24,644 nt of DNA from a virus. Both the position numbers and the translations under genes were made by a program. Positions within the stretch are counted from its first letter, which is position 1; each line of letters opens with the position of its first letter. Under the pieces are notes generated by a model, which was given only the letters and a program-made list of their open reading frames with translations, made no database searches and had not been told where the DNA came from. The stretch lies in IMG/VR virus record IMGVR_UViG_3300032215_000672, positions 1 to 24,644 of that record. The stretch is one strand, 5' to 3'. Below are positions 1-19,300 of this stretch, piece by piece.

Positions 1-1622
1 CCAGATGCATCCATACCAGCATCCATCAACTCATCAATGAATAACAAGTTAATTTGTTGGTAAAGACCTTCCCACACATCTCTGAAAGCCCAACTTAAAC
101 TTAAAATTAATCTATTTCTCTCTCCTCGACTCAAATTATCAAAATCTAATTCTCTGCCCAACTCTTCAATCTGAACATTTAAGTCTGGTAAAAATACCAC
201 AGTGTGAGGCAATTTAACCTGTGATAGATAAAATGCTAATCTTTGATTCAAGAATGTTAAGTTTTGTTCTATAATTCTAGTTCGAATAAAAGAGTCTTTA
301 GCAGTCAACAATTTATATAAGAATTCTTGATGTCTGAATAAATCTTCAATTTCGTTAGCTTTAATATAATCTATCTTTTGTATAGCAGTTTTACCTAATT
401 CTTCTATTTGTTCTTGATATGGGTTTTCTTTGCTCTTATTTTGTTCTAATTGTCTTTTTAAATCTTCTAAAGAGCCCTTGTGATTATATGCTTCATCTAT
501 ATTATCATAATAAGTGTCTGGAACAGAACCAATGTCACCGATATTTTCTATATTGCTCTGTATTTCTTTTAATTTTGCAGTAAGGTTTTGCTCATATTCT
601 TTTTGTTCTGTTAAATTCTTTCTTAGTTTATCATTTAAATGTTCGTGTTTTTCACCGTGTAAATCTTGCTCACAAGTAGGACACTTGGCCTGTGCTGCAT
701 ATTCTATATCTTTAACTGTTTGTTCTTTTTCTCTAGATGCTTTAGTTAAAGAGTCCTCGTGATAGCTCTTTTCTTTTTCAAGATTTTTTAATGTTTTTAA
801 ATCGTCTTTATGTTTGGCTAATCGTTTGTGTGCTTCTAATTCTTTTTGAATATCTACTCGTTCTAATTCTTCTATAGCAGATTGAAACTTTTTAATATCT
901 TCTTCTTTCTGTCTATCCCATGCTGAATTTCTTAATTGTAGTGCTTTAATAGATTCTTCTACTTTCTCATTGCTACTAACTATAGCTTGTAAACGCATTT
1001 TTTCTTCAGCTAACTCTTTTTTTGCCACAGTCATCTGTTCTTTTAACAGTTCTGCTTTCTCGCTCAACAGAGTAATACCTAATAATTGTTCTATAATTTC
1101 TCTCTGTTCTGCTTGTTTAGTAGACAAGAATGGTTGTGTATATGTGTTCAATGCCACTATATTCTTGAACATAGCATGCGTCATACCAATTAATTTATTG
1201 ATCTCTTCTTGAGTTTCTCTGTTCTCTCCTTGTGCTTCGTTGTCTTCTGTGCCGTCATCTCCGGCACTCTGTTCAATGTCATTCTTAAAGAATTTTAATA
1301 CCTGTGGTTTTCTACCACGCTCTATTTTGTAATTAATACCATTTTTTTCGAAATTTACAGTGACCAACATATCTTTGGCGTTGGTTTTATTCACAAGATT
1401 GTCTCTACGAATCTGTGTTAGTGCTTCGCCAAAGAACACATAACTAATGGCATTTATAATAGTGGTCTTACCAGTACCATTTCTTGCACCTGCATCATCG
1501 CCGCCCAAATCCATGTTTTCGCCGATTACTAATACTAGATTTTTACCAGCAAAATTTATAGCCTGCGTGTGATTGCCCACACTCATAAAGTTTTTTACTG
1601 TGAGATCTTTAATGTTGAACAT
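1..1622 (-). CDS. 46: gp46-like recombination endonuclease subunit (SbcC/Rad50-type ATPase), 3' end cut by window edge
   Basis: ATPase subunit of the phage Mre11/Rad50-like complex that resects DNA ends for recombination-dependent replication and host DNA breakdown. My translation from ATG at 1622 is open for 540 codons. The N-terminus reads MFNIKDLTVKNFMSVG, close to the T4 gp46 start. A Walker A (RNGTGKTT, residues 47-54) follows an expanded loop after GEN (34-36). Long charged coiled-coil segments flank a zinc-hook CPTC (Cys314, Cys317; bases 672-683). The signature LSRGER (497-502) and Walker B LLFIDE (526-531) follow. T4 gp46 is 560 residues, so only roughly 20-40 residues should be missing. 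The start overlaps the gp47 stop by 14 bases and no clear ribosome-binding site precedes it, so translation is probably coupled to gp47. Confidence 0.96.
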   Translation of the reverse strand, partial: MFNIKDLTVKNFMSVGNHTQAINFAGKNLVLVIGENMDLGGDDAGARNGTGKTTIINAISYVFFGEALTQIRRDNLVNKTNAKDMLVTVNFEKNGINYKIERGRKPQVLKFFKNDIEQSAGDDGTEDNEAQGENRETQEEINKLIGMTHAMFKNIVALNTYTQPFLSTKQAEQREIIEQLLGITLLSEKAELLKEQMTVAKKELAEEKMRLQAIVSSNEKVEESIKALQLRNSAWDRQKEEDIKKFQSAIEELERVDIQKELEAHKRLAKHKDDLKTLKNLEKEKSYHEDSLTKASREKEQTVKDIEYAAQAKCPTCEQDLHGEKHEHLNDKLRKNLTEQKEYEQNLTAKLKEIQSNIENIGDIGSVPDTYYDNIDEAYNHKGSLEDLKRQLEQNKSKENPYQEQIEELGKTAIQKIDYIKANEIEDLFRHQEFLYKLLTAKDSFIRTRIIEQNLTFLNQRLAFYLSQVKLPHTVVFLPDLNVQIEELGRELDFDNLSRGERNRLILSLSWAFRDVWEGLYQQINLLFIDELMDAGMDAS

Positions 1623-2631
1623 CGAGATTATTGTATATTGCCATTAATACTGTTTTATCATAAGTTTGTGAATCCACTGCTTCCAATTGTTTTATAACAA
1701 TTTGATCCACGCTGTCAAATTTTTCCACTTTGACCATGGGCTGATCTGCCTGATCTAACTGCTCTGGTATCAACTGTAACTCTCGCAATTGATATTTTTC
1801 CATGAATGTTTCTCTAATGAAATTGGCTTCCTCGTAGGAAATCTTAATGTCTAATCCCACTCTTACATACATCTTGTCAGCCAATATGTCGTCAGCCGCA
1901 TTTAATAGTTGTGATATTTTGTAATGTCGATACTTGGGCATGTCGGGCCAGTTAATATACTGTGGTTTACCACCATATTCTAATATCATCATGCCTCGCT
2001 CATCATCGCCTGCATCTGCATAATTGTGAGGAAAAGCATTGCCTATGTAATGTATGTTGCCTCGAATCTGTCTCATGTGGAAATGTCCAGTGAATACATA
2101 TTCTTGATTTACAAAGTGTTCCGATTTGATCGTGCCCACGTCTGGCATGTCTACCATGGCATTCATTTTAAAATATGGCAATTCAAAATGTCCAAAAATA
2201 TATCTCTGTTTTAGATCTTTGACTTTTTTCCATTCGTCGCCCACAATCCATGGAATTATGGCCACGTCATCTTCTACCAGCCAATCGTTCACTATTTTTA
2301 TATTAGGTATGTTACGACAATACTCCATGCTGTTGATTTCTCGTTTCTCTCTGTAGAATAGATCATGGTTGCCCATGATCACATAAACTTTTTCAAAAGC
2401 TCGCCCCAACCTTTCCATGTTACTAACAGTGTAATTCATGGTACTAACATTAGTGGCCGATCTGTGATGATGCCAATCGCCCAAGAATATACAAGTTTCA
2501 CAACCTGCTGCTTTGGCCTGTGCTATGAACCAATGGCAGAATGCTTCTCCATCGTCGTTGTGTACTCGGCTGTTGCCCTTCAATCCAAAATGTATATCAG
2601 TAAAACAAGCCGCTTTCTTAAAAAATGCCAT
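1609..2631 (-). CDS. 47: gp47-like recombination endonuclease subunit (Mre11/SbcD-type nuclease)
   Basis: Nuclease partner of gp46. The 340-residue product has the calcineurin-like metallophosphoesterase motifs in order: TDIHFG (Asp12, His14), GDWHHHR (Asp52), GNHD (Asn88, His89), GHFE (His148) and GHFH (His183, His185). These form the expected two-metal site, and the length is near T4 gp47 (339). The C-terminal third has no motif I recognise and should be the gp46-binding/capping region. It lies 9 bases downstream of gp55 on the same strand and overlaps gp46 by 14 bases, giving a compact 55-47-46 unit. A short inverted repeat (AGATA-T-TATCT, 2636-2646) spans the gp55/gp47 junction; I give it no function. 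Confidence 0.97.
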   Translation of the reverse strand: MAFFKKAACFTDIHFGLKGNSRVHNDDGEAFCHWFIAQAKAAGCETCIFLGDWHHHRSATNVSTMNYTVSNMERLGRAFEKVYVIMGNHDLFYREKREINSMEYCRNIPNIKIVNDWLVEDDVAIIPWIVGDEWKKVKDLKQRYIFGHFELPYFKMNAMVDMPDVGTIKSEHFVNQEYVFTGHFHMRQIRGNIHYIGNAFPHNYADAGDDERGMMILEYGGKPQYINWPDMPKYRHYKISQLLNAADDILADKMYVRVGLDIKISYEEANFIRETFMEKYQLRELQLIPEQLDQADQPMVKVEKFDSVDQIVIKQLEAVDSQTYDKTVLMAIYNNLDVQH

Positions 2632-3578: not shown

Positions 3579-3608
3579 GTTTTAGTTTAAAATTTGTACT
3601 GCTTGGAA

Positions 3609-3637
3609 ATTATAAAGTGCGCCTATTATTGTGCCTA
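3609..3637 (-). promoter_or_regulatory. Sigma70-like promoter for the 55-47-46 unit
   Basis: On the minus strand a perfect TATAAT -10 (3614-3609) is preceded by a 17-base spacer and TAGGCA (3637-3632), a 4/6 match to the TTGACA -35. Predicted initiation is near 3602, giving a leader of about 35 bases before gp55. It fits an early or middle gene read by host polymerase. The -35 overlaps the divergent late promoter. Assigned by inspection only. Confidence 0.5.
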
Positions 3638-3643
3638 TAAATA
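3636..3643 (+). promoter_or_regulatory. T4-type late promoter (TATAAATA) for the baseplate operon
   Basis: Exact match to the T4 late consensus TATAAATA recognised by gp55-bound RNA polymerase, 55 bases upstream of the gene 48 start. Initiation expected near 3649, giving a leader of about 50 bases. Positioned to drive the whole plus-strand structural block. Confidence 0.8.
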
Positions 3644-3688
3644 TTGTTACAGTATACGAAATTTAGAAAAGAATTACAACCTATTAAT

Positions 3689-3698: not shown

Positions 3699-4517
3699 AT
3701 GGCAGACCTGGGAAGCATAATAAATTCAGTTACCAACGTATCGAAGAGCGTCGGCGGGGTGTTCAGCAATGTTGCAGAACGTTTGAATAGATCTGGACTG
3801 TTCCCAGGCGCCCAGCCATCGCAATCTTTGACCGCCAGAGCGCAGTGGTCGGTTCGAGGCAATGCCACCGATTTTAGAGTCAAAATAACATTACCACCAG
3901 AGGGCACTTTAAAAGCCACCTATTTTGGAGGATCGAGTGAAATACTTGCTCCATTAGAGCCCGAAAAAGGCGTGATATTTCCTTTGACTCCCAGCATAGT
4001 GCTAACACACTCGGCATCTTATCAAGAACTGGCAACCACACACAGCAATTATCCTTTCTATGCTTATTCACACACAGATGTGCCAACCATTAATATCACA
4101 GGAGATTTTCCTGTACAGAATTATCAAGATGCACAGTATTGGGTAGGCATGGTGCATTTTTTTAGATCAGTCACTAAAATGTTCTTTGGAGCAGACAACG
4201 CCAATAGAGGTAACCCCCCACCGATTCTGTGGTTAAAGGGCTACGGAGATTATGTGTTTAATAATGTGCCTGTGGTAGTGAAGAATTTTTCTGTGACCAT
4301 GGGTCAGGATGTGGATTATATTTCAACATCTCAGAATAATTCTGTAAATGCTGTAGTAACTAATAAACAAGAATCGTCCTCGTGGGCTCCAGCAATGAGC
4401 ACGGTTAATTTAATAGTGCAACCAATCTACTCCAGAGAATCGACTAAGAATTTTAGTATGACGAAGTTTATAAATGGAGAAATTAGTGGCAACACCAACA
4501 CAAGAGGATTCATTTAA
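3699..4517 (+). CDS. 48: Baseplate tail-tube cap protein (gp48-like)
   Basis: A 272-residue protein that should cap the baseplate hub and start tail-tube assembly. I use ATG 3699 (MADLGSIINS), which has a ribosome-binding site and lies downstream of the late promoter. An in-frame ATG at 3594 would add 35 Cys/Tyr-rich residues encoded across the promoter. The second half has WVGMVHFFRSVTKMFFG, PPILWLKGYGDYVFNNVPV and the closing VNLIVQPIYSRESTKNFSM. These fit the gp48/gp54 tail-tube-related fold and resemble proteins annotated gp48 in marine T4-like phages. T4 gp48 is 364 residues, so this is a short form. First gene of the operon; its stop overlaps the gene 53 start by one base (TAATG). Alternative: gp54, a related fold. 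Confidence 0.7.
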   Translation: MADLGSIINSVTNVSKSVGGVFSNVAERLNRSGLFPGAQPSQSLTARAQWSVRGNATDFRVKITLPPEGTLKATYFGGSSEILAPLEPEKGVIFPLTPSIVLTHSASYQELATTHSNYPFYAYSHTDVPTINITGDFPVQNYQDAQYWVGMVHFFRSVTKMFFGADNANRGNPPPILWLKGYGDYVFNNVPVVVKNFSVTMGQDVDYISTSQNNSVNAVVTNKQESSSWAPAMSTVNLIVQPIYSRESTKNFSMTKFINGEISGNTNTRGFI

Positions 4518-4816
4518 TGGCAGCATACAGTCAGACATCTCCATATTACAATACTCCGCAAAATAAAATTAGTATGGATATATTTGTCCCGAGAGCCATA
4601 ACTGCGGAATTGGATGATGTTACCTATACCATAGATAGGATATATGCCTACAGACCCGACCTTTTGGCCTATGACTTGTATGGCACGCCCCGATTATGGT
4701 GGGTGTTTGCACAGAGGAATCCAAACAGGATCGAAGATCCTATCTATGACTTTTATCCAGGCAATGTGATACAATTGCCAAAAATGAGTAATCTTAGATC
4801 CGATCTAGGAATCTAA
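4517..4816 (+). CDS. 53: Baseplate wedge protein gp53
   Basis: A 99-residue wedge component that helps join wedges around the hub. It carries the family core YAYRPDLLAYDLYGTPRLWWVF (about 44-64) followed by RNPN (67-70) and DPIYDFYPGNVIQLP (74-88), the last LysM-like. T4 gp53 is 196 residues; the short form is common in marine relatives. The start overlaps the preceding stop by one base, so translation is likely coupled. The next gene begins 2 bases after its stop. Confidence 0.88.
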   Translation: MAAYSQTSPYYNTPQNKISMDIFVPRAITAELDDVTYTIDRIYAYRPDLLAYDLYGTPRLWWVFAQRNPNRIEDPIYDFYPGNVIQLPKMSNLRSDLGI

Positions 4817-4818
4817 AC

Positions 4819-6999
4819 ATGGCAATAAATTTTAAGTCAAACCCGGATAACATATACGAAGGGTGGCCCAACACATTGGATCAGTTTGCCTCTTACACAT
4901 ATATGTTCACTCTGTCTGCGATTAGGAGGAGCGAATTGGCAAGTCCGTCTTTGCTGTGGGACAAACCACCACATGATATAATAGCCAGAAGCGGAGGAAT
5001 TGGACCAGGGAAAAATTCTACTCCATTTGGAACAGAGATAATAGGCACAGGGATAAAAGATTCTCGAGACACAGATTTCTCTCCCACAAACTTGGTCAGT
5101 CCCAACATAGATGTGCTAGATGCCGACACAAACATATTGGAACAAAATCTAGACATCTTTTTTGCCAGAGTCTCCATAGAGACAGTACAGGCAGGCAACG
5201 AACTGAGACGCATGGCAAGGCTTTCTAAAATAAGCATGGAATTGGTTGAGCCATATGGGGTTAGTTTATTGAATAAAGTACGTGCTGCCGCAACCAATTG
5301 CGGTTGGTACAATCATACATCAGCACCGTTCTTATTAACTTTAGAATTTAAAGGATGGGACGAAATGGGCAACCCGATCATTCCCACAAATACAAATGGA
5401 CTGAAAAGATTAATACCTATAAAATTAACCAAATCAGACATACAAATAAACGAGGCAGGTACCAAATATACAATAAGTGCTGCTGCATGGAGTGAACTGG
5501 GGTGGTTAGATCAGTACGATAAGGTCAGAGGCACAGGCAATACATTCAGTAATGCAGTGTTTAATATCAAACAAAGAGTAAGCGGATTCTTCTCCGCACA
5601 CCAAAAGCCATCATTAAAAAATTTTAGAACAACATTTCAAACTGCTCAAGATACGCCAGCTAAGTCTTTGCAAACAGGAGCAGCAAAATTACAAGATGCG
5701 ATGAATAATCTTGCCAGATCACTGAATGACTTGCAAGAAAGAGAAGTGAGGAGAAATTTAAAAGAAAAACCAGACATCTACGAAATTATAGTAGATCCGG
5801 GCATATTTGATGGGGCCAGCCTAAATGCTAACCAAGCGGCATCTGTGGCTGCCGGGGGATATTCGGCTTATTTGAAAGTGGGAGACAGCATAACAGAAGC
5901 CATTGCCAGAACAGTGATGCAAGGAGATTATTATAAAATAATTTATGATAGGGCCAACGAATTATGGAAAGCGGCCGCGGGGGTTAATAATGCTGAAACT
6001 AATACCGAACTTTTTAAAAATGTAAACAACATAGCTTCTAGTCCTCTAAGGCAAGAAGACAACACATACCTATTAGATTGGTTCACAATCACATCAACGG
6101 TTGAAGCAGTAAACGATTTTGATAATAAGATAAAAGATTCCACAAGAAAAATAACATATAGAGTAATGCCTTATAAGATACATCTGCTGAATGCCGTCGG
6201 GCCGGGCATGAGTCTAGACGAATCGATATATAAAAATGTAAAAAAAGTTTACAATTATATCTACACGGGATTGAACAAAGATATATTAAGTTTAGAAATA
6301 AAATACAATGTTGCTTACACCCAACCAAAAGCAATACAAGAACTACAATCATCAGCAGAAAAAAAAGATCCATCTAATGAAAATTTTAGAGCAGCCATGA
6401 AACAGTATTATAACACAGGAAATCGTTTTTCCGACCCAGAGTTTCCATGGGGTTCTTCTGTGACGGTGCAAACAGAATCTAATGCTTCCGTGATCGGGTC
6501 AGAATCTCCAGCGACCGACCAAATATACGAATATCTCACCAATCCCACAGGAGACCTAGCAAAAATTGAAATGACGATATTGGGGGATCCGGCATTTTTG
6601 CCCCAAGACATATACATTCCGATCACAGATGACAAGAGTGTTGGAGCAGGCAATATAATTTTTCAGAACAAATCATGGAACGAACAATTGCAGTGTTTTA
6701 ATGCCAATTGGCAGGAAATAGTTATAAGACTAAACATAAAATATCCACAAGATATCAATGAAAACACAGGATTGATGAAAACAAACAATGTTGCTTTCAA
6801 TGGAATCTATAGAGTATACAACGTGGAGAGTGTTTTTGAAAACGGTAAATTCACACAAAATATACAAGCTGCGAGATACAAAGGACAAGGAAAAAAAGTT
6901 TATTGGGGAACAGCAGTGGATACATCTGGCACAAAAAACAGTACTAACAGTACTAACAGTACTACTAATAGTACAGATGTTAATTATAACTATTTTTAA
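4819..6999 (+). CDS. Virion structural protein, probable baseplate hub (gp27-position)
   Basis: A 726-residue protein between 53 and 5. I do not recognise it by name; the hub assignment is inferred from position and from its C-terminal portion. The N-terminus (INFKSNPDNIYEGWPNTLDQ) and the LTLEFKGWDEMGNPI stretch (about 173-187) look like a beta-rich tail-hub domain. A helical segment (about 290-320) contains LQDAMNNLARSLNDLQERE. Near the C-terminus, ILGDPAFLPQDIYI (around 590) and the IYRVYNVESVFENGKF stretch (around 663-678) resemble the closing strand of tail hub proteins such as gp27. It ends in an Asn-Ser-Thr tail encoded by tandem 9-base repeats. No gp27 homologue is otherwise visible, so it may be the gp27 equivalent with extra domains. 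Start 2 bases after the gene 53 stop. Confidence 0.7.
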   Translation: MAINFKSNPDNIYEGWPNTLDQFASYTYMFTLSAIRRSELASPSLLWDKPPHDIIARSGGIGPGKNSTPFGTEIIGTGIKDSRDTDFSPTNLVSPNIDVLDADTNILEQNLDIFFARVSIETVQAGNELRRMARLSKISMELVEPYGVSLLNKVRAAATNCGWYNHTSAPFLLTLEFKGWDEMGNPIIPTNTNGLKRLIPIKLTKSDIQINEAGTKYTISAAAWSELGWLDQYDKVRGTGNTFSNAVFNIKQRVSGFFSAHQKPSLKNFRTTFQTAQDTPAKSLQTGAAKLQDAMNNLARSLNDLQEREVRRNLKEKPDIYEIIVDPGIFDGASLNANQAASVAAGGYSAYLKVGDSITEAIARTVMQGDYYKIIYDRANELWKAAAGVNNAETNTELFKNVNNIASSPLRQEDNTYLLDWFTITSTVEAVNDFDNKIKDSTRKITYRVMPYKIHLLNAVGPGMSLDESIYKNVKKVYNYIYTGLNKDILSLEIKYNVAYTQPKAIQELQSSAEKKDPSNENFRAAMKQYYNTGNRFSDPEFPWGSSVTVQTESNASVIGSESPATDQIYEYLTNPTGDLAKIEMTILGDPAFLPQDIYIPITDDKSVGAGNIIFQNKSWNEQLQCFNANWQEIVIRLNIKYPQDINENTGLMKTNNVAFNGIYRVYNVESVFENGKFTQNIQAARYKGQGKKVYWGTAVDTSGTKNSTNSTNSTTNSTDVNYNYF
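6937..6975 (+). repeat. Tandem 9-base repeat encoding an Asn-Ser-Thr tail
   Basis: AACAGTACT occurs three times exactly (6937-6963), followed by ACT and a diverged copy AATAGTACA (6967-6975). The period is a multiple of three, so copy number can change without shifting the frame of the hub-candidate protein. Confidence 0.85.
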
Positions 7000-7005
7000 T
7001 AGCGA

Positions 7006-7017
7006 CCTTTTAAAAGG
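7006..7017. repeat. 12-base perfect palindrome before gene 5
   Basis: CCTTTTAAAAGG is a perfect palindrome in the 34-base gap between the hub-candidate gene and gene 5. Its 3' half contains the only Shine-Dalgarno-like AAAAGG of the gap, abutting ATGTAA (7018-7023). The gene 5 ATG lies 16 bases further on. Function unknown. Confidence 0.5.
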
Positions 7018-7033
7018 ATGTAAATAATTTATT

Positions 7034-9427
7034 ATGGGCGATATATCATCAAAATACGGAGCGGCATCATCGGAAAATTTCCAGGTCAAAGGAAAAGGTG
7101 GATCTCGATTGGATCCCGGTCCATACATAGCCATAGTCAAAAATAATATCGATGACATGTACATGGGCACACTGACAGTGATGATACCAGCATTGATGTT
7201 TGAAGGCAACGAAGGTCGATTAAGCGAATTGATTAAGGTTAGATACATGACCCCGTTCTATGGAACCAAAAGCCCCAACGCCGTGGGAGATAACCCCGGA
7301 GATAAAACAACTTATTCAGAGGCACCGCATTCTTATGGTATGTGGTTTACTCCTCCAGACATCGATACCAAAGTATTAGTGATATTTGCCGAAGGAGAAA
7401 TAACACAAGGTTTTTGGATAGGGTGTATACCCGAACCATTCCTTAATAACATGGTACCAGGCATAGCAGCATCTACTAGTGCCGCTTTGCCAGAAAATGA
7501 CACCAGTGGAGCAACAGTAAGTAATATATACGGAACCAATAATGTACCTGCGGGAGAGATCAATAGAAATTTATTGGCCACGGCCGATAAGTCACTCATT
7601 GACCAAACTCCAAGACCCGTGCATCCTTTCGCACAAACTTTAAGAAAACAAGGACTTACACAAGATACTGTTAGAGGAACTACCACTAGTTCGGCACGTA
7701 GAGAAACACCAAGCTCGGTTTTTGGAATCAGCACTCCGGGCAGGATAGATCCTTACACGCCAACGTCAAAATTAGGACCCGCAGATGCTCTGCGTGATGT
7801 AGCCACCACCCGTCAGGCCGGACACACATTCGTTATGGACGATGGAGATGTTAATGGCAGTAATCAATTAGTGAGATTGAGAACAGCATCCGGACATCAA
7901 ATTCTAATGAACGACACAGCAGGAGTGGTCTATATTGCCAATGGTTCAGGAAATGTGTGGATGGAATTCGCACAAGATGGCACGGTGGACATATATTCAC
8001 GATTGGGTTATAATCTAAGATCGGGTGGAGATATTAATTTTCATTCTGAAGGTAACATCAATATGTATGCCAACGGCAATATCAAAATGAAAGCCAATCA
8101 ACACCGATTCGAAGGCGATAATTTGATCAAAGGTATAATCAGTATGGACGGGTCAGTAATCAATCAAATTGCCAATCAACAAATCAATACCACAGTGACA
8201 AATGGATCTTATGCTCTATATGCAAAAAATAACATTATGTCTCAAGCCGACACAGGTTTCCAGGTACATCAATCTGGTCATCAAACTCATCTTATTGGCG
8301 AGCAAATTCATTTCAATAGTATACCCCCTATTGAAAATCTAGTATATCCATTACAAAGGACAGGGTTCAATCAACCGAGCGGTACAGGTACCAATGAGAT
8401 ACAGGTACAGGATGTTACTCCATTATTAAAATCAGCAACAGGAATTCTTAAAGTGGATAGAACCATTCCAGGCATGTCGGGCATGCGAGTACCCACACAC
8501 GAACCGTGGGTATGGCATTCAGATTATGTGGTACGATTCCCAAGAGGATCCAACATAGCAGACAGCAACAATCCCGGCACCCCAGGATATCAAGCTCGAC
8601 AGAATAGACTAAGTACCATCCCTGCTATACAGTTAGGACAATATGAAGCCGATCTAGAAGATTATCTAGCAGCAAATATTTCTAGTCCAACTGACGTTGC
8701 CGGCATACAGAGATTAACACAACAATTTACTGAAAATTATGCTGCCACCTATGGATTGCCAGATGGTCCTTTTGCCATAACATCATCCACCGGCGGAGTT
8801 AGTGACGTGGCGTCTAAAATAGTACAAAATGCCAAGGCATTATTTTCAGGATCATCAGCTCAGGCTGCTGAGGTTAATCTTATACAAAATCAAACATTCC
8901 TTAATAATAATAATGGATATGTTACTGTAATTGGGGATCCTCAAAAAGCCATGAGCGCTCTAGGAGTTGGCCCATCTAATCTTACAGCGGCCGCAGTGGT
9001 TCAACAATCTATTAATAAAATTCAAAGTTTATCCGGAACAAATGCTTTGTTCAATACTAAAGCTCTTCAACAAAATATTATCAACAAAATAGAACAAGGT
9101 GCTATCAATAAAGGAACTAATTATGCTGTTGATTATCTTCAGAGCACCACACTCTATAAAATGGGTCAAGATTATATTAAAGAATTACAACAACAAGCCA
9201 ATGTGTATGTTGGACAAACTTTCAATGTAGGTGATTATGGTTCCACACAGATAGAAAATTTGTACAATCAGAGTACTGTAAGTAATCAAGTAACCAACAC
9301 TTCTTTGTTGTCAACAGTGACGAATTCTTTCGGAGAAAATGTATTAACCATCAAAGCCAGTGTAGAAAATTTTGTATCACAATTGTTTGATAATACGCCA
9401 TCCAATGATGGTTGGGGAGTAGGTTAA
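7034..9427 (+). CDS. 5: Baseplate central spike/hub protein gp5 (no lysozyme domain seen)
   Basis: A 797-residue spike protein expected to form a trimer at the baseplate centre. The N-terminal OB-fold (about 30-140) has TLTVMIPAL, YGMWFTPPDIDTKVLVIF and TQGFWIGCIPEPF, typical of gp5/VgrG. A Pro/Ser/Thr-rich linker (about 145-260) follows in place of the lysozyme domain of T4 gp5. Residues 263-355 read HTFVMDDGD, RLRTASGHQILMND, GVVYIANG, then short beta-helix-like repeats (GGDINFHSEGNINMYANGNI), as in VgrG/gp5 C-terminal domains. Beyond are a VPTHEPW motif (486-492) and about 300 residues of helical, Gln/Asn-rich sequence not found in T4 gp5 (575 residues). The ATG at 7034 is the first in frame after a stop and lacks a well-spaced ribosome-binding site. 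Confidence 0.88.
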   Translation: MGDISSKYGAASSENFQVKGKGGSRLDPGPYIAIVKNNIDDMYMGTLTVMIPALMFEGNEGRLSELIKVRYMTPFYGTKSPNAVGDNPGDKTTYSEAPHSYGMWFTPPDIDTKVLVIFAEGEITQGFWIGCIPEPFLNNMVPGIAASTSAALPENDTSGATVSNIYGTNNVPAGEINRNLLATADKSLIDQTPRPVHPFAQTLRKQGLTQDTVRGTTTSSARRETPSSVFGISTPGRIDPYTPTSKLGPADALRDVATTRQAGHTFVMDDGDVNGSNQLVRLRTASGHQILMNDTAGVVYIANGSGNVWMEFAQDGTVDIYSRLGYNLRSGGDINFHSEGNINMYANGNIKMKANQHRFEGDNLIKGIISMDGSVINQIANQQINTTVTNGSYALYAKNNIMSQADTGFQVHQSGHQTHLIGEQIHFNSIPPIENLVYPLQRTGFNQPSGTGTNEIQVQDVTPLLKSATGILKVDRTIPGMSGMRVPTHEPWVWHSDYVVRFPRGSNIADSNNPGTPGYQARQNRLSTIPAIQLGQYEADLEDYLAANISSPTDVAGIQRLTQQFTENYAATYGLPDGPFAITSSTGGVSDVASKIVQNAKALFSGSSAQAAEVNLIQNQTFLNNNNGYVTVIGDPQKAMSALGVGPSNLTAAAVVQQSINKIQSLSGTNALFNTKALQQNIINKIEQGAINKGTNYAVDYLQSTTLYKMGQDYIKELQQQANVYVGQTFNVGDYGSTQIENLYNQSTVSNQVTNTSLLSTVTNSFGENVLTIKASVENFVSQLFDNTPSNDGWGVG

Positions 9428-9445
9428 CAGAGATTAAATAACAAT

Positions 9446-9853
9446 ATGGCAACTTCAGATCAAAACATAAACCCAAATCTACAACAAGTGTTCAAAGGAT
9501 TCAGTTCTAGAGCAGAGCAAACCAATTTTCGCTTGTATGATTTCCAATTGATCAGACAAGATCTTATAAATCAGCTCAGTGTCAGAAAAGGCGAGCGAGT
9601 AGAGAACCCAGAGTTTGGCACCATGATATATGATGCCATATACGAGCCATTAACAGAAGCAATTAAAGAACAGATATTAGCGGACATTACTCGCATATTG
9701 AACTCTGATCCTCGCATAGCAGCATCAAACATACTGGTATCAGAACAAGGCAGCGGAATCAGCGTACAGGCAGATCTTACCTATGTGCCCTACAATATCA
9801 CAGAGAAGTTAAGGTTTAATTTCGATCAAAACTCCACATTAAGTCTTTCTTAA
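9446..9853 (+). CDS. 25: Baseplate wedge protein gp25
   Basis: A 135-residue wedge protein with the gp25/gpW-like fold that links the wedge to the first sheath ring. RKGERVENPEFGTMIYDAIY (47-66) matches the family signature RKGxRxxxPEFG of T4 gp25 (132 residues), followed by the helix EPLTEAIKEQILADI and a closing beta segment ISVQADLTYVPYN. It follows gene 5 by 18 bases with only a weak purine stretch (AGAG) upstream. It sits directly before gene 6, whose protein it contacts in the T4 wedge. Confidence 0.95.
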   Translation: MATSDQNINPNLQQVFKGFSSRAEQTNFRLYDFQLIRQDLINQLSVRKGERVENPEFGTMIYDAIYEPLTEAIKEQILADITRILNSDPRIAASNILVSEQGSGISVQADLTYVPYNITEKLRFNFDQNSTLSLS

Positions 9854-9858
9854 TCTAC

Positions 9859-9888
9859 GCACTTAACGATATCAATAAATATCAGTGC
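9859..9888 (+). promoter_or_regulatory. Late-type promoter motif inside an inverted repeat upstream of gene 6
   Basis: AATAAATA (9874-9881) fits the NATAAATA late motif of marine T4-like phages. It is enclosed by nested inverted repeats: GCACT (9859-9863) with AGTGC (9884-9888), and GATAT (9868-9872) with ATATC (9879-9883), with a 4-base bulge (TAAC) and a 6-base loop. Initiation from the motif would fall near 9887, leaving a leader of only about 9 bases before the gene 6 ATG (9896). Promoter, RNA hairpin or both are possible; assigned by inspection. Confidence 0.45.
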
Positions 9889-9895
9889 ATAATTT

Positions 9896-12800
9896 ATGTC
9901 CACAACTGATAGACAAAATCGATTACTTGTAGCCCAAGATTGGCAGAAAATCTACACCAGTTTCCAACAGGCTAATTTCAAGTCTTACGACTTTGAAACC
10001 ATCAGAAGAACCATGGTGGGTTACCTTAGAGAAAACTATCCAAACGATTTTAACGATTTTGTAGAATCATCAGAGTACATAGCTCTCATAGATCTTATTG
10101 CCTACATAGCACAGAGTTTGAGTTTTAGAATAGATCTTAATGCTAGGGAAAATTTCTTAGAGACAGCCAGCAGAAGAAACAGCATACTTAGATTGGCACG
10201 ATTAATTAATTACAATCCTAAAAGAAATCAACCAGCCACTGGCTTATTAAAAATAGTATCGGTTGCAACCACACAGTCAGTCACAGACGGCACCGGAGCG
10301 ACCATATCCAGCAATACCATTCTATGGAATGATCCTAATAATCCAAATTATAGACAAAATTTTATAGACATATTAAATGCATCCAACGTACAGGGACAAA
10401 TTTTTGGAAGACCTAGAGAATCTGATACAATAGGTGGAATAGATACAGAAACTTACACTTTGAATTCTACCAATATTGATGTGCCTATATACACCATTAA
10501 TAGGACCATCGGTGGCCTCTCATTAAATTTTGAGATAGTGCCATCAACAATAACAAATTCAGAATCTATATATGAACAAGCCCCAGTGCCAGGCACAGGA
10601 TTCACTTATCTTTACAGGAACGACGGTGCCGGAGACAGCAGTCCTAACACAGGATTCTTTGTATTGTTCAAACAAGGTTCATCATCTGTTTTTAATTTTA
10701 ACATTGCTCAACCAGCCACTAATTATGTTCAACCAATCAATGTCAGTAATATTAACAATTCAGACGTTTGGTTGTATCAACTGGACGATTTTGGACAAAT
10801 ACAAAATTATTGGACACAGGTGCCAGACCTAATAGGCAACAATGTAATATACAACAGTCTTAGTGCCGACATCAGAAATATCTATAACGTGGTCACTCAG
10901 GAAGGGGACAGCATCAACTTGGTGTTTGGAGATGGAAATTTTGCCAACATACCTTCCGGTGCATTCAGATTTTATTACAGAACAAGTGCCAACACTAATT
11001 TTTCTATAAAGCCCACAGACATGCAAGGCATAACCATCAACATACCATATCGTGACAAGAATGATGCACAACAGACTTTAACCATCACTTGCTCATTGCA
11101 ACAGAGCATATACAATGCATCGGCCTCTGAAACCAATGCCAGCATAGTGACCAAAGCCCCTCAAACATATTATTCCCAAAACAGAATGATCACTGGAGAA
11201 GATTATAACATAGTACCTTTGTCGGCTTCACAAAATATTATAAAAGTTAAATCCACCAATAGAGCAGCCAGCGGCATCAGCAGAAGCAAAGAGATATTGG
11301 ATCCCACAGGAGCATACAGCAGCCTGTCTGTATTTGCCGATGACGGAATAATTTACAGAGAAGAAAATAATCCACAATTTACTTTTACTTTCGTTAACAA
11401 CAACGAGATAATGGATGTGATAGAAGGAAAAGTACAATCTAGATTGACCGAAGCTTATTCTAGACAGTTCTATTATTTAAAATATGGACAAAAAGATCTT
11501 AGCACACTAGGAGCTCGTTGGATATCTTCTACCAGTGGAACCAACACCAACACTGGTTATTTTGCTTCATCGGGCCCATTGCCTGTTGGAGTAACAAGCA
11601 GCAACGATCTCAAATATGTCTCTCCGGGAGCATTGGTTAAATTCACATCACCGGATTCTAGAAAATTTTTGAATAATAAACTGGTGCCCGCAGCCACAGG
11701 ATTGGCACAAGATAGATTATGGGTAGAAGTCTCTAATGTGATTGGAGATGGATCAAACAGTGGAGTAGGAAATCTTTCATCGGGTCTAGGACCAATAACA
11801 CTAAGCAATCAAGTACCTTTGGGGTCGGTAGTTTCGGCAGTGTATGCTCCTTTCTCTACAATTTTTGATGATAATCTCACAAAAAACATGCAGACACTTA
11901 TAGCAAATTATGAAAATTTTGGTGTAAGATATGATTTTGAATCAGGACTATGGAAAATAATCACAGCCGCTAATCTAGATACCTCTACAAATTTCTCTTT
12001 AGCACATGCAGGTGACACCTCGGCAACCAATCAGGACGCCAGCTGGTGGTTCCTATTCACAAACGACCAAACTATCTATACAGTTACATATCGATCATTG
12101 GATTATATATTTCAATCAGTGGAGCAAAACGTGTTCCATTACGATTCAACAGACAAAATATATGATTATGTTTCTGGTACATCGGTCAAAGATTCTATAA
12201 AAATATTAAAGGGTAACACCGTGCCAAGCACAGGGTTTCCTGTGGGATATCCGATCACTTGGCAGATAGTAGATACCATAACAGAAGCAGATGGTTATCA
12301 GGATAATAGAGCAGTCAAGATAGGATTCTATGACTCTAATGATGACGGTGTGGCCGACAATCCAGAAATTTTTGATATTGTGGTTGAGCCCACAGTAGAT
12401 GTCACTACAAAATATGTTTTCTTTCAAAAATATGTCGGATATAACAATATCATACGATATAAACCAACAGATGCTACAAATTTTATTGTGGCAGACAGCG
12501 AGTCCAGCATTACTCTTCCGGGATCATATCAAAATGGACAATTATTTTATTTCTATTTGGAAGATGTGGTTAAAATGTATAATGCTGATAGCATCACATT
12601 GACCACTAATACAGATTATTATGCACGTGTGGGAAGATCTTCCATAGAATTTATGTACAGTCACAATGCTGGACAAACCACCAGAATAGATCCATCACAA
12701 ACCAATATCATTGACATATATCTTTTAGAGAGACAATACGATCAGTCATTTAGAAGATGGATATCTCAGGGCGGCACAGAACCAACACCGTCCACGTCAG

Positions 12801-13375
12801 ATCAATTAAGAATATCATATTCGGGTGTATTAGAACCATTGAAGGGATTATCAGACCAGATCATCTATCATCCTGTTACATATAAAGTTTTGTTTGGTTC
12901 AAATGCAGATGAAAATTTACAGGCCACATTCAAAGTGGTTAAAAATTTAAGTACAAATGTAACAGATGCGGTTATAAAAACCAGAGTTATACAGGCAATC
13001 AATCAATTTTTTGCATTAGATAATTTTGATTTTGGAGATACATTTTATTTTACAGAACTAGCAGCCTACATACATCAGCGATTAGCACCCGATTTATTAT
13101 CAGTGGTTATCGTACCAAATCAACCAAAACAAGGATTTGGATCTCTCTTCCAGATAAGTGGAGCATCGGATGAGATATTCATCAGCGGAGCGACGGTTGA
13201 CAACGTAGTAATCATAGATGCTATAGGAGCCAATCAGTTAGAGGCTTCTGGTAATGTCGTAACTAGCACAACAAACGTCACAACCAGCAACAGATCCACA
13301 TCGGCAGTATCTTCGGTCACTACGGCAAGATCTGGATCAGGATCCAGTGTTGGCAGTAGCGGAACTGGATACTAA
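9896..13375 (+). CDS. 6: Baseplate wedge protein gp6, enlarged
   Basis: A 1159-residue wedge protein; in T4, gp6 (660 residues) forms the inner ring that holds wedges together. The N-terminal region (1-130) has the gp6/gpJ-like helical start: FETIRRTMVGYLRENYP, FVESSEYIALIDLIAYIAQS, LNARENFLETASRR. A conserved block near 420-470 reads YYSQNRMITGEDYNIVPL. The C-terminal wedge domain (about 1000-1100) has VIKTRVIQAINQFF, FDFGDTFYFTELAAYIHQR and LLSVVIVP. The middle (about 500-980) is an extra beta-rich insertion containing an EF-hand-like loop DSNDDGVADNPE (813-824). The last about 45 residues are Ser/Thr/Gly-rich. No ribosome-binding site is visible; a hairpin/late-promoter element ends 7 bases upstream. 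The next gene starts 2 bases after its stop. Confidence 0.9.
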   Translation: MSTTDRQNRLLVAQDWQKIYTSFQQANFKSYDFETIRRTMVGYLRENYPNDFNDFVESSEYIALIDLIAYIAQSLSFRIDLNARENFLETASRRNSILRLARLINYNPKRNQPATGLLKIVSVATTQSVTDGTGATISSNTILWNDPNNPNYRQNFIDILNASNVQGQIFGRPRESDTIGGIDTETYTLNSTNIDVPIYTINRTIGGLSLNFEIVPSTITNSESIYEQAPVPGTGFTYLYRNDGAGDSSPNTGFFVLFKQGSSSVFNFNIAQPATNYVQPINVSNINNSDVWLYQLDDFGQIQNYWTQVPDLIGNNVIYNSLSADIRNIYNVVTQEGDSINLVFGDGNFANIPSGAFRFYYRTSANTNFSIKPTDMQGITINIPYRDKNDAQQTLTITCSLQQSIYNASASETNASIVTKAPQTYYSQNRMITGEDYNIVPLSASQNIIKVKSTNRAASGISRSKEILDPTGAYSSLSVFADDGIIYREENNPQFTFTFVNNNEIMDVIEGKVQSRLTEAYSRQFYYLKYGQKDLSTLGARWISSTSGTNTNTGYFASSGPLPVGVTSSNDLKYVSPGALVKFTSPDSRKFLNNKLVPAATGLAQDRLWVEVSNVIGDGSNSGVGNLSSGLGPITLSNQVPLGSVVSAVYAPFSTIFDDNLTKNMQTLIANYENFGVRYDFESGLWKIITAANLDTSTNFSLAHAGDTSATNQDASWWFLFTNDQTIYTVTYRSLDYIFQSVEQNVFHYDSTDKIYDYVSGTSVKDSIKILKGNTVPSTGFPVGYPITWQIVDTITEADGYQDNRAVKIGFYDSNDDGVADNPEIFDIVVEPTVDVTTKYVFFQKYVGYNNIIRYKPTDATNFIVADSESSITLPGSYQNGQLFYFYLEDVVKMYNADSITLTTNTDYYARVGRSSIEFMYSHNAGQTTRIDPSQTNIIDIYLLERQYDQSFRRWISQGGTEPTPSTSDQLRISYSGVLEPLKGLSDQIIYHPVTYKVLFGSNADENLQATFKVVKNLSTNVTDAVIKTRVIQAINQFFALDNFDFGDTFYFTELAAYIHQRLAPDLLSVVIVPNQPKQGFGSLFQISGASDEIFISGATVDNVVIIDAIGANQLEASGNVVTSTTNVTTSNRSTSAVSSVTTARSGSGSSVGSSGTGY

Positions 13376-13377
13376 CA

Positions 13378-16300
13378 ATGGCAGATCAACCAATCAATAG
13401 CCAAAACAATTTTGAGGTTGTAACAGACCAGAATGGCACGACATTCAGGAGATCAATAGCACATCTTCCTGCTTTCTATAGAACAGATGCCAATCAAAAA
13501 TTTTTAAGCAGCACAGTAGACCAATTAATACAACCAGGCAAACTGGAGAGATTGGATGGTTATGTAGGCAGACAATATTCATACACCAGGAAACCTGCCG
13601 ACAGTTATTTGTCAGCAGTCAACGAGGACAGAACAAATTATCAATTGGAACCCACGGTCACTTATACCGAGCAAGACACATCATCTATAAATCCTGAAGA
13701 TCAGGTTAAATTTACAGCCACCTATGATGATTATATTAATCAGATAAAGTTTTTTGGTGGTAACGTAGATAATCATGATAGATTAAACAGAGAGCAAGTA
13801 TACAATTGGAACCCGGCAATAGATTTTGACAAACTAATTAATTACAGAGAATATTATTGGTTGCCAGAAGGACCAAATCCAATATCTTTAGAAGAGAATG
13901 GACCAAATTCTGTTACAGAAGTAGATGTAACATCTCCCGACGGGCAGTCTTATAATTTTACCAACTACCCAGGGGTAGATAATCCTGCTATAACTTTATA
14001 CAGAGGCAATACCTATAAGTTTAATATAGATCTTTCTGGACATCCGTTCTACATAATGACGCAACCTTATGCAGAGGGCGTGGCAACAGATGGTAGTACG
14101 TCAACCATATACAACGAATCTGTGGAGAATAATGGAATAGAGCATGGTACTTTAATATTCACGGTGCCTTCCGATGCGCCAAACACTTTATATTATCAAT
14201 CTGGCACCAATCAGGCCATGCATGGATCTATAAGCATCAAAACATTATCGTCTGATACGTTGATTGATGTGGCACACGAAATAGAAAATACAAAAAACTA
14301 CACCATGGATTCGGGCATAAAATTAAGCAATGGAATGAAGATACGATTTTTTGACAATGTATTGGACAACAATTATAAAAATCAACAATTTTATGTAGAG
14401 GGAGTGGGAGAGTCCATTACTTTAACGAATTTAAATTCATTGATAACCCCCGAATCCTATGCTGTGGAGAGCACGGATTTATATGACACAGTGGCATACG
14501 ACAGCAGACCATATGCGGTTAGTTTTTATAGACCACAAAACCCCGATTACATCACTATAAAAAGAGACAGCGTCGACGGCAATGCTTGGAGCAGATATAA
14601 TAGATGGTTCCACAAAGACATAATAGAGGCCGCTGGACGAGCCAACGGTTACACACCAGAACTTCTAGAAACAGACAGAGCCAAAAGACCCATAATAGAA
14701 TTTGACTCTGGACTCGCCTTATTCGATCACGGGAGCAAAGCAATAAAATCAGTTGCATTAGTAGACACCGTGACGACAAATATTTTTTCGCAAATAGAAA
14801 ATAAAATTAGCTATTATGTAGATGGTTACAGCTTACAAGCAGGTATGAGAGTGTTGTTCACCAACGATGTTGATGATTCTGTTAGGAATAGAATATATAA
14901 AGTCACCTTTGTAAAAGCCAACAACGTAAATGTTATTTCTTTGGTGGAAGAACCAGACGGACAACCAGCAGATAACAACGCAGTATTTGTAGAATTTGGA
15001 CAAGAAAATCAAGGAAAAACACTTCATTATCATGCAGAACAAAAACAATGGGTAAACTCTCAGAGGAAAACACAATTGAATCAACAACCATTGTTTGATC
15101 TATTCGATGAAAATTTAATATCATTCAGCGAAACAGAATATTATCCAAATTCTACCTTTACTGGAGCAACAGTATTTGCATACCAAACGTCAACATTGTC
15201 TACTCTAGACACAGTGTTGGGTTTACAAATAAAATATTCAAATCTTAATAACATTGGCGGCATTTTGTTTACATCAGATATCGAAACAGGAAAATTCACT
15301 TATAAGAACGGAGAAACTTTTGTCGACAAACTGTTTGTTACTGGTCATTTACAATATCGCAACAAGAAAAATCAAAATTTAATAAAATCATCTTTCGTTA
15401 AATCATCAGGACAAAGCAAGCAAAGAGTAGTAAAATTATATGTTGCTGATGCAAAACAACTGAATCTGTTTGCTATAGATGTATTTCCGAACAGTGCAGA
15501 GTTGACAGATCTAGAAGTTCAGGTGGATTTAAATTCAGTCACTCAAAATCTTGGTATTGATTATGATTTGGTCAATGGCACAACAAACAAATATGTACAA
15601 TTTTATAAAGATTTAAATGTAGGAGATATAGTAAAATTACAATGCTACAGTAAATCTAGTAGAACGCCAGGCATGGGTTTATACGAGATACCAGAAAATT
15701 TAGCAATTAATCCTTTCAATGATAGATTAAATGAATTTACTTTTGGTCAAATATTAAATCACTTACATGATATACAAGAAAAAAATCGAGATTTTATTGG
15801 AGCGACCCCAGGCATCAGCAATCTTAGAGATCTTCCACATGTTAGAATAAATGGCGGAACAATATTACAACATACTGCTCCTCTGCCGCAGGCTTCTTTC
15901 CTTTTAATAGATCAAAACGCCAATGCAATCAGCAGTATTGATTATGTTTCTTCAGAATATCAAAGATTTAAAGATAGTTTTGTCAATTACAACACAGGTA
16001 AAGATTACAATGGTGATGCACAGGCCATGGTAGATGACATTATACAAGGCATGGCAGGAAGCAAAGATAACAGTTTTCCTTTTTTCTATGAAGACATGAT
16101 TGGTTTTGGGCAGAAAGTTAGTGTAAGAAATTATGTGGTGCAAGACTCGGCGGAAAAACAATTTGTTATTGATTCTATTTTTAATATAACATCGCCAAAT
16201 AATCGTGCGGTATATGTTTATCAAAATGGTGCACAGTTATTGTTAGGACAAGATTACAATTTCAGTACCACGGGTGATTATGTGGAAATTACCGCTGCCC

Positions 16301-19300
16301 TGAATTCCGGAGATACTATAACCATAAGAGATTATCCCAATACTAGAGGCAACTTTGTGCCAGTGACTCCAACAAAAATGGGCATGTATCCAAAATTTAA
16401 ACCAGAGATAATTGTAGATAACACTTATATTACTCCCACCACAGTTATAGTTGGCCACGATGGCAGCAGAACAGTTGCTTATGGAGATTATAGAGATGAT
16501 ATATTGTTAGAATTGGAAAAAAGAATCTACAATAATTGCAAAACAGCATACAATCCTGCATTGTTATCAGAAACAGAAGTTCGTCCTTCTGCTTTCTCTG
16601 CGACCGATTATGCCCTGGAAGAAATCAACGAAACATTGAGTTATGATTTTTATAGTTGGGCAGGCAAAAATGGTCTAGACTATCAATCGAATACAGCATA
16701 CGATTCAGAAAACCCATTCACGTACAACTATTCACAAAATTTTGATGCTATCAATGGAAAAAAATTGCCAGGATATTGGAGAGGCATATACAAATATTTC
16801 TATGACACAGATAGGCCTCACACCAATCCGTGGGAAATGTTGGGCTATAGCGAGCAACCAACGTGGTGGCAAGAAACATATGGACCAGCTCCGTACACGT
16901 CAGGCAACACAGTATTATGGAATGATATGTCCAAGGGGTATGACGCCGGCTCCAAAGAAACGGTGGTCAGATATAGAAGACTTGATTTATTAGAATATTT
17001 GCCTGTAGACGAATACGGAAAATTAAAATCTCCAAAAGACATTGGATTGATACAAACGTATACCCAAGAGGGAACAGATATCATATGGAAATTTGGAGAC
17101 CAAGCACCAGTTGAAACAGCATGGCGCAAGAGTTCGCAATACCCATTCTCGGTAATTAAAATGTTGGCATTGACCAGACCAGCAAAATTCTTCTCGTTGT
17201 TTTTTGACAATAGTAAATTAAAAACTAGCATTACTGGAAATTTAATAAATTCTGATACTTTAATTACACAAAACATTAGAACAGACAAATATCATTTAGA
17301 AAACGAAAAAGATTCTCATGGCAATGTTACAACATGCATAACTTCTGGATATCAACCGTTCATAGTGAATTACTTGATAAAGAATGGATTGGATCCAGCA
17401 CCGTTCTTTTACGACAAAATGAAAAATTTAAATGTGCAGTTGTCTTATAAATTAGGAGGATTCACAGACAAGAACAATTTAAAGATATTGTTGGATAGTG
17501 TAAGCCCTGCATCATCCGGGGGTTCTCAATTTTTGCCAACAGAAAATTACAAAGTTTTATTTAGAGTCAGCAATCCTGTTAATACCTATGATTATTCCGG
17601 TGTGTTAATAGAATTGGTTTCCGGACAAACACAATCTGGTTATAAAGTAGTTGGATACAACACCATACGTCCATACTTTAAAACATTACAGCCGGTGATC
17701 AACAACAACAATTATGCCATAAAAGTGGGCAATGCCACAGGATTGATATACAAAGATTACAGCGAATCAGAAACCACGGTAACCTATGGAACAATATTAC
17801 CCAATATACAATCGGTGGTTAATTTTTTAACTGGGTACGGCAAGTATCTAGAATCACAGGGTTTTGTGTTTGATAAATTTTCTAAAGAATTACAAGAAGT
17901 AGCAAACTGGGTAACATCGGTCAAAGAATTTCTATATTGGACAAGGCAGGGTTGGGCATCAGGATCAGCAATAACATTGAGTCCGGGAGCAGATAGTTTT
18001 CGAATAACAACGCAATTTGGAATAATAGGACAATTAAAAAATTTAGAAGGACAGAACACACTACTAGATTCATCAGGACAATATATAAACAACAGTTACA
18101 TCAGTAGCAAAAGAGCAGGATCAACATTTGAAATAAGCACGAAAGACTCAAATATTGGAATTTATAACGCCAGCATGAATGCTGTGCAAAAAGAACACAT
18201 ATTAATATTTGATAATAAGACTGTGTTCTCTGATATATTGTTAGATCTCATCACAGGTTACAGACAAGAAAGATTAAAACTAATCGGATGGAAAACAGCC
18301 AACTGGAATGGAGATTTTTATGCTCCGGGGTTTGTGTTTGATGAAGCTGTCGTTAATCAATGGACCGCTAACACGGATTACGAAATCGGCGATACGGTAG
18401 AATACACAGCAAAATTTTATGTGGCTAAAATCAATCATAACTCGGGGAACAAATTTGTAGCAGATAATTGGCAAATTAAGAATAGCAAACCAATGGCACA
18501 ACTCCTGCCAAATTTTGATTACAAAGCTTCTCAGTTTAACAGTTTTTATTCTTTAGAAAGCAGCAATTTTGATGAAGGGCAACAATCTTTAGCACAACAT
18601 CTAACAGGATATCAATCTAGACCATATTTAGAAAATCTTTTTGCCAACGATATTACGCAATATAAATTTTATCAAGGATTCATAAGAGAAAAAGGAACAT
18701 TAAACGCCATAAACAAATTGATCAAAGGACAATTCTTTGGATCAAACATAAATTTAGAACTGTATCCTGAGTGGATGATCAGAGTGGGTGAATTCGGCAA
18801 CCTGAATGCTAAAAATTCGGTGCAGATTGGCATGCCAGACAGCCAATTTAAAAATAACATACAGAGTATAGAATTAATAAACACCAACAAAGACACAGTG
18901 AGTTGGGACAATTCTTCGGCCGTCACTCAATCGGAATTATATTCCAAACCACTGGAATACAATGCCTTAACAACATTTGATCTTTATGATTATAATCAAC
19001 CAGAACTGGACAGAGATGTTGTACAAAAATACAAGACCGCAGGATATCCTAGAATCGAAGACGTTGATTACACCCTGTTCAATGAGAGAGATTTATTAAA
19101 TTTAGATACGACAAAATTATCATCACAATCTTTGGCTTGGATAGCTAAAAAACAAAATAATGACTGGGACGTTAAACGATTGACATTCTCACATTTGAGA
19201 GTTAATTCGGTATTGGCCTTAAACAACAACAGTCAGGCACAGATAATATTTGATGGCACACATAATTTTGTTGTGGGCGATTATTTTGCAATACTGCAAA

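Follow-up and report, generated by a model that had tools for sequence, protein, structure and literature searches.

The late sigma factor of phage T4, split and minimal, is the textbook example of a sigma that recognises nothing but the -10 box of its promoters and depends on a sliding clamp. In phage lambda, the divergent promoters PRM and PR overlap too closely to be occupied jointly, and form a switch. At -35, the late promoters of T4 show no conserved sequence (PMC2988020, PMC7892883). For the related jumbo phage CBB, the excerpted text of one report places the gp55 promoter in a distinct class with a TGAAACG -35, rather than treating it as plain early (PMC5259590).

The window, our term for the whole 24 644-nt stretch analysed, is a 24.6-kb virus contig in which gp55, gp47 and gp46 read leftward and a baseplate operon reads rightward, with a gap of 132 bp between gene 55 and the operon (Table 1). 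It resembles the T4 system (gp55/gp33/gp45) in having a gp55-family sigma with region 2, a TATAAATA box before structural genes, and late transcripts of either polarity. It differs in that the late promoter before the baseplate operon carries a conserved box at about -36 to -24, at fixed spacing, where T4 has none (PMC2988020, PMC7892883), and in that the window's gp55 has an inserted domain of ~125 aa and shows no evident conserved C-terminal clamp-binding motif. CBB and GAP32 share the long type of gp55, the predicted late-promoter motif ATAAATA (at 35 places) and a gp55 gene downstream of its own promoter, whereas the excerpted text describes neither an upstream box nor an overlap with a divergent late promoter (PMC5259590). 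Cyanophage S-SM1 has the same gene order, 55-47-46, but there same-strand genes precede the cluster, which is not divergent from a baseplate operon, and the gp55 match covers residues 162-271 only, without the insert. Unlike in lambda, each of the two overlapping promoters in the window would have its own sigma factor, and one of these sigmas would be the product of the gene that is shut off. We regard the late promoter here, in a family of large T4-like phages, as a variant of T4 late transcription with an extra conserved upstream element.

Table 1. Features of the window (+, rightward strand; -, leftward strand)
Feature	Position	Strand	Evidence or remark
gp46	3-1622	-	after gp47
gp47 (SbcD-like)	1609-2631	-	downstream of gp55; phrog annotation
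gp55, late-transcription sigma factor homologue, 308 aa	2641-3567	-	phrog, PDB and Foldseek matches
Initially annotated gp55 promoter, TAGGCA (3632-3637)/TATAAT (3609-3614), 17-bp spacer	3609-3637	-	-10 kept in 7/32
Putative late promoter upstream element, consensus TTAAGTGCGCCTA, here TAAAGTGCGCCTA	3613-3625	+	conserved columns, recurrence
Predicted late promoter -10 box TATAAATA	3636-3643	+	invariant in 45 near relatives
Predicted sigma70-type gp55 promoter, -35 TTGTAA (3674-3679), 17-bp spacer, -10 TATACT (3651-3656)	3651-3679	-	32/32 distinct near relatives
First gene of divergent operon, virion structural protein (phrog_12050)	3699-4517	+	ATG at 3699
Remainder of rightward operon	4517-13375	+	nearly gapless
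gp53	4517-4816	+	operon
Virion protein	4819-6999	+	operon
gp5 hub/lysozyme	7034-9427	+	operon
gp25	9446-9853	+	operon
Second predicted bipartite late promoter, before gp6, TCTTAATCTACGCACTTAACGATATCAATAAATA	9848-9881	+	15 nt before gp6 ATG
gp6	9896-13375	+	operon

The initial annotation took the leftward gene for the late sigma factor, and homology searches bear this out. The product matches phrog_12791 (E 4.7e-81) and phrog_234 (E 2.1e-24), and matches the sequence of T4 gp55 in PDB entry 7d7c (E 1.8e-5, residues 151-237); among fold matches to its model, T4 gp55 in the open promoter complex ranks first (7d7c_F, Foldseek probability 0.99). The gene encodes a T4 gp55-type late sigma factor with homology to sigma region 2. 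It is the long version found in jumbo phages, and phrog_12791 reaches 121Q/PBECO4-type phages. The extra domain (residues ~25-150) follows the conserved N-terminal motif YLNNRDLL and precedes sigma region 2. Cyanophage and T4 gp55 lack it, and searching by fold with the whole protein found no relative for it other than gp55/sigma region 2. No obvious conserved hydrophobic sliding-clamp-binding motif was seen at the C-terminus, and the C-termini of relatives differ in length and sequence. Genes 33 and 45 lie outside this partial contig. In PA5oct and 121Q, too, the divergent operon begins with a gene of the phrog_12050 family. Downstream of gp6, positions 13378-24642 form one open frame, at least 3755 codons long, that continues past the end of the contig.

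Neither promoter stands out by its count, so relatives were compared. The window has a single TATAAATA box, where shuffles have 3.2 +/- 1.9, and sigma70-like sites are at chance level overall (46 found, 42.7 +/- 7.1 expected, in 12 kb). Genome-wide counts of TATAAATA showed no clear excess over a reversed-pattern control in most contigs and were therefore not used as evidence. The comparison set held 80 loci with gp55 relatives, of which 45 near ones (L001-L044 and L050) share the region; these gave 32 distinct sequences for counts of the leftward promoter and 31 for column conservation.

Rightward, TGCCTATAAATA was found at the same place and in the same orientation in 45/45 near relatives. 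The late promoter rises above chance because it is conserved and not because of its count, and its 33-bp bipartite form had no match in shuffled windows. T4 geometry puts TATAAATA at -13 to -6, with a predicted start ~50 nt before the first gene of the operon. We identify the box as a conserved T4-type late promoter heading the baseplate operon, in agreement with the initial annotation. The window also has weak late-like sites ahead of gp5 and gp25; relatives do not conserve them, and they were dropped.

About 23 bp before TATAAATA lies the upstream box. Across the 31 relatives, columns 3618-3625 and 3613-3616 are invariant or nearly so, and the block is conserved as strongly as TATAAATA itself. 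The box was seen at three promoter classes only: the gp55-divergent promoter, the gp6 promoter, whose bipartite form is conserved in 16 contigs, and a promoter between two divergently oriented tail genes, one for the baseplate hub and one tape-measure-like, where the spacing has one extra base. It is missing from the majority of the other late-type sites of these phages. A cross-class matrix comparison gave a column-permutation p of 0.0002 or less between the gp55-divergent and gp6 classes, and about 0.001 for the third class with its 1-nt shift.

In the IMG/VR collection the gp6-type pattern occurred in at least 119 stretches at the observed spacing, and in 2 and 2 at spacings one nucleotide shorter and longer. 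Its matches lay before gp6 in 144 of 149 cases, two others falling at the gp55-divergent promoter of the distant loci L313 and L321, and all 119 of 119 matches to the gp55-divergent pattern adjoined gp55 or its divergent partner; these counts are not independent events because much of this is orthologous descent. The independent evidence for the box is its sharing between promoter classes and its fixed register in distant relatives. Thus L048 has TTAAGTGCG at the identical distance from TAAATA, and a group test over distant relatives gave p 0.0002, with the best score at zero shift. A matrix of the box only, built from gp55-divergent promoters, missed the other classes when the TATA part was left out, so the box alone is no genome-wide detector. 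A loose bipartite pattern run across the window gave only a chance-level match.

For the leftward promoter of gp55, the initial annotation had proposed TAGGCA/TATAAT, its -35 overlapping TATAAATA by two bases. The letters, positions and overlap are exactly as it gave them, and, in the window as in seven distinct sequences from its subclade, TAGGCA/TATAAT has 10/12 consensus letters. Its -10, however, is retained in those 7 of the 32 distinct relatives, all from the window's own subclade, and is missing in the other 25, where the position reads TATAGC, AATAAC, AATTAC or TACTAG. TAGGCA owes its fixation entirely to the late promoter, whose invariant TGCCTA it complements, and TATAAT complements the letters that precede the upstream box. 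The pair is mostly the complement of late promoter elements. That it drives gp55, with a start at about 3602 and overlapping the late promoter, we judge improbable; within the window's own subclade alone, it may possibly give gp55 a secondary promoter.

The best-supported gp55 promoter, judging from conservation, is at 3651-3679, where both hexamers, a spacing in the 16-18 bp range and conservation are found together. A pattern of TTG-N3, exactly 17 bp and then a TATACT, TATAAT, TATTAT or TACATT hexamer is present in all 32 distinct near relatives, against a background of 0.4% of random 60-nt windows. When best hits were scored automatically, this conserved site was sometimes beaten by other sigma70-like sites, and positional conservation decided. 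Distant relatives have strong gp55 promoters, for example GGTTGACA with TATAAT, and the consensus is TTGACA/TATAAT. What the initial annotation said of overlapping divergent promoters therefore stands, and the overlap is tighter than it had claimed, but it had assigned the wrong letters to the leftward one.

With standard spacing, the leftward start is predicted at ~3644, abutting TATAAATA, and the rightward start at ~3649. The starts would be ~5 bp apart, so each polymerase footprint would cover the other promoter and only one promoter could be occupied at a time; by these predicted starts the footprints overlap as expected for mutually exclusive divergent promoters. The gap from the sigma70-type promoter to the late box is 7-8 bp in 30/32 and 17 bp in 2/32. 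Elsewhere the late box falls inside the 17-bp spacer of the gp55 promoter (L054, L063, L072, L313), abuts the gp55 -35 (121Q), or is found a few tens of bp upstream of that -35 (L045-L080, PA5oct), with less overlap of footprints. Phosso has a longer gap with the two promoters far apart, and the first gene of its operon is annotated differently. Loss of one promoter with the gene order kept was not seen among relatives down to ~55% gp55 identity, nor in the cultured phages PA5oct and 121Q, both jumbo phages, and Atu_ph07, where gp55 is divergent from the operon and both promoter types are kept. What is constant among relatives is the gene order and the presence of both promoter types in one short gap, and the extreme interlock is a feature of the window's clade. 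Since the geometry differs between lineages, a switch of fixed geometry is not what is conserved.

We lean towards an interlocked pair, a sigma70-type gp55 promoter and a bipartite gp55-dependent late promoter, acting as an early-to-late switch with shut-down of gp55. Host-type polymerase would transcribe gp55-gp47-gp46 from the sigma70-type promoter before any gp55 exists. As gp55 and the replication clamp accumulate, the late polymerase would take the bipartite promoter, turning on the baseplate operon and lowering gp55's own early promoter. The sequence makes steric overlap unavoidable; exclusion of sigma70 polymerase by gp55 polymerase, with negative feedback on gp55, is plausible, as the initial annotation had suggested. 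Counted against the switch are the weaker overlap in L045-L080 and PA5oct, the spacing in Phosso, the CC-N-ATAAATA on the gp55 strand of many distant relatives, the other late sites without the box, and the CBB promoter class. The fuller version, a two-element late promoter whose box at the -35 position is read by the holoenzyme, interlocked with the gp55 early promoter and autoregulatory, we put forward tentatively and hold to be somewhat short of an even chance. The box may be read by the domain inserted in gp55, by a counterpart of gp33 or, on a rival reading, by a different regulator restricted to tail operons.

Both promoters might be real and their overlap nothing but compact packing, occupancy of one having no useful effect on the other, with timing set by the supply of gp55 and clamp. 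The geometry does vary freely, the late box being 7-8 or 17 bp past the -10, in the spacer, abutting the -35 or tens of bp upstream; against this, nearly all relatives have both promoter types within one short gap, and the near clade hardly departs from the 7-8 bp spacing though much of the leader diverges. We consider packing rather unlikely. The box could also be an operator for another phage regulator of tail and baseplate operons which, when bound, would also repress transcription through the gp55 leader. We take this rival seriously because the box is confined to its three promoter classes, the majority of other late-type sites being without it, and T4 gp55 and gp33 read no sequence at -35 (PMC2988020). 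The fixed spacing of box and TATA in two classes over large divergence is, however, what contact by a holoenzyme predicts, an argument qualified by the third class being off by 1 nt, and we rate the operator unlikely to about the same degree as packing.

A role for the 3613-3643 block in the gp55 mRNA leader, as RNA structure or protein site and not as DNA, is very improbable. Counted from the predicted gp55 start, the block would span about +2 to +32, but the same box with ATAAATA stands before gp6, where there is no gp55 transcript, and does so in late-gene orientation, and Rfam gave no match in the region or in relatives.

If the two-element late promoter is correct, a large and abundant environmental branch with a fixed-spacing box would show how a missing -35 contact can be replaced, and the box makes the function of the extra domain of the long gp55 testable. 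The interlock would be a simple autoregulatory circuit, in which a promoter of the factor's own regulon shuts its gene, addressable in cultured jumbo phages of the same gene order.

Several minor observations were made in the relatives. TAAATA lies 11-14 nt before the ATG of 25/288 genes in G025 (the contig of L046; loci L121-L137) and of 33/379 in near-clade contigs (L081-L120), where more distant positions predict about 2-3. Shine-Dalgarno-like letters are scarce at these sites, 2/28 against 141/260 in G025, with a weaker contrast in the near clade (11/34 against 156/345). T4 geometry would put a TAAATA-driven start on the AUG, so these may be leaderless late mRNAs.

Two inverted TATAAATA boxes, 33-36 bp apart, sit between divergent tail genes at G010:10951/10984 and at equivalent places in G005, G009, G011, G013, G014 and G024; the late promoters would face each other across a short overlap. 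The gp55 leader of L023-L044 contains CAGACCTGTTTGTGGTC (for example L034:4957-4973), identical in nearly all members and limited to that subclade among the loci searched. It has no Rfam match and no stable fold, and a candidate leader hairpin in these loci was rejected as folding no better than shuffles (z +1.45).

In L045-L080 the gap upstream of gp55 has CC-N-ATAAATAAT on the gp55 strand beside an inverted TAAATA, a possible bidirectional late promoter that would give positive feedback on gp55. With CC-N-ATAAATA on the gp55 strand in many distant relatives, feedback there would be positive and not negative. In G025, at 61859-72781 (loci L124), a cluster of small leftward genes has a sigma70-type promoter in common. 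Its -35 reads GGTTGAC and its spacer contains a conserved GGTAAAACC; this is probably a signature of early promoters.
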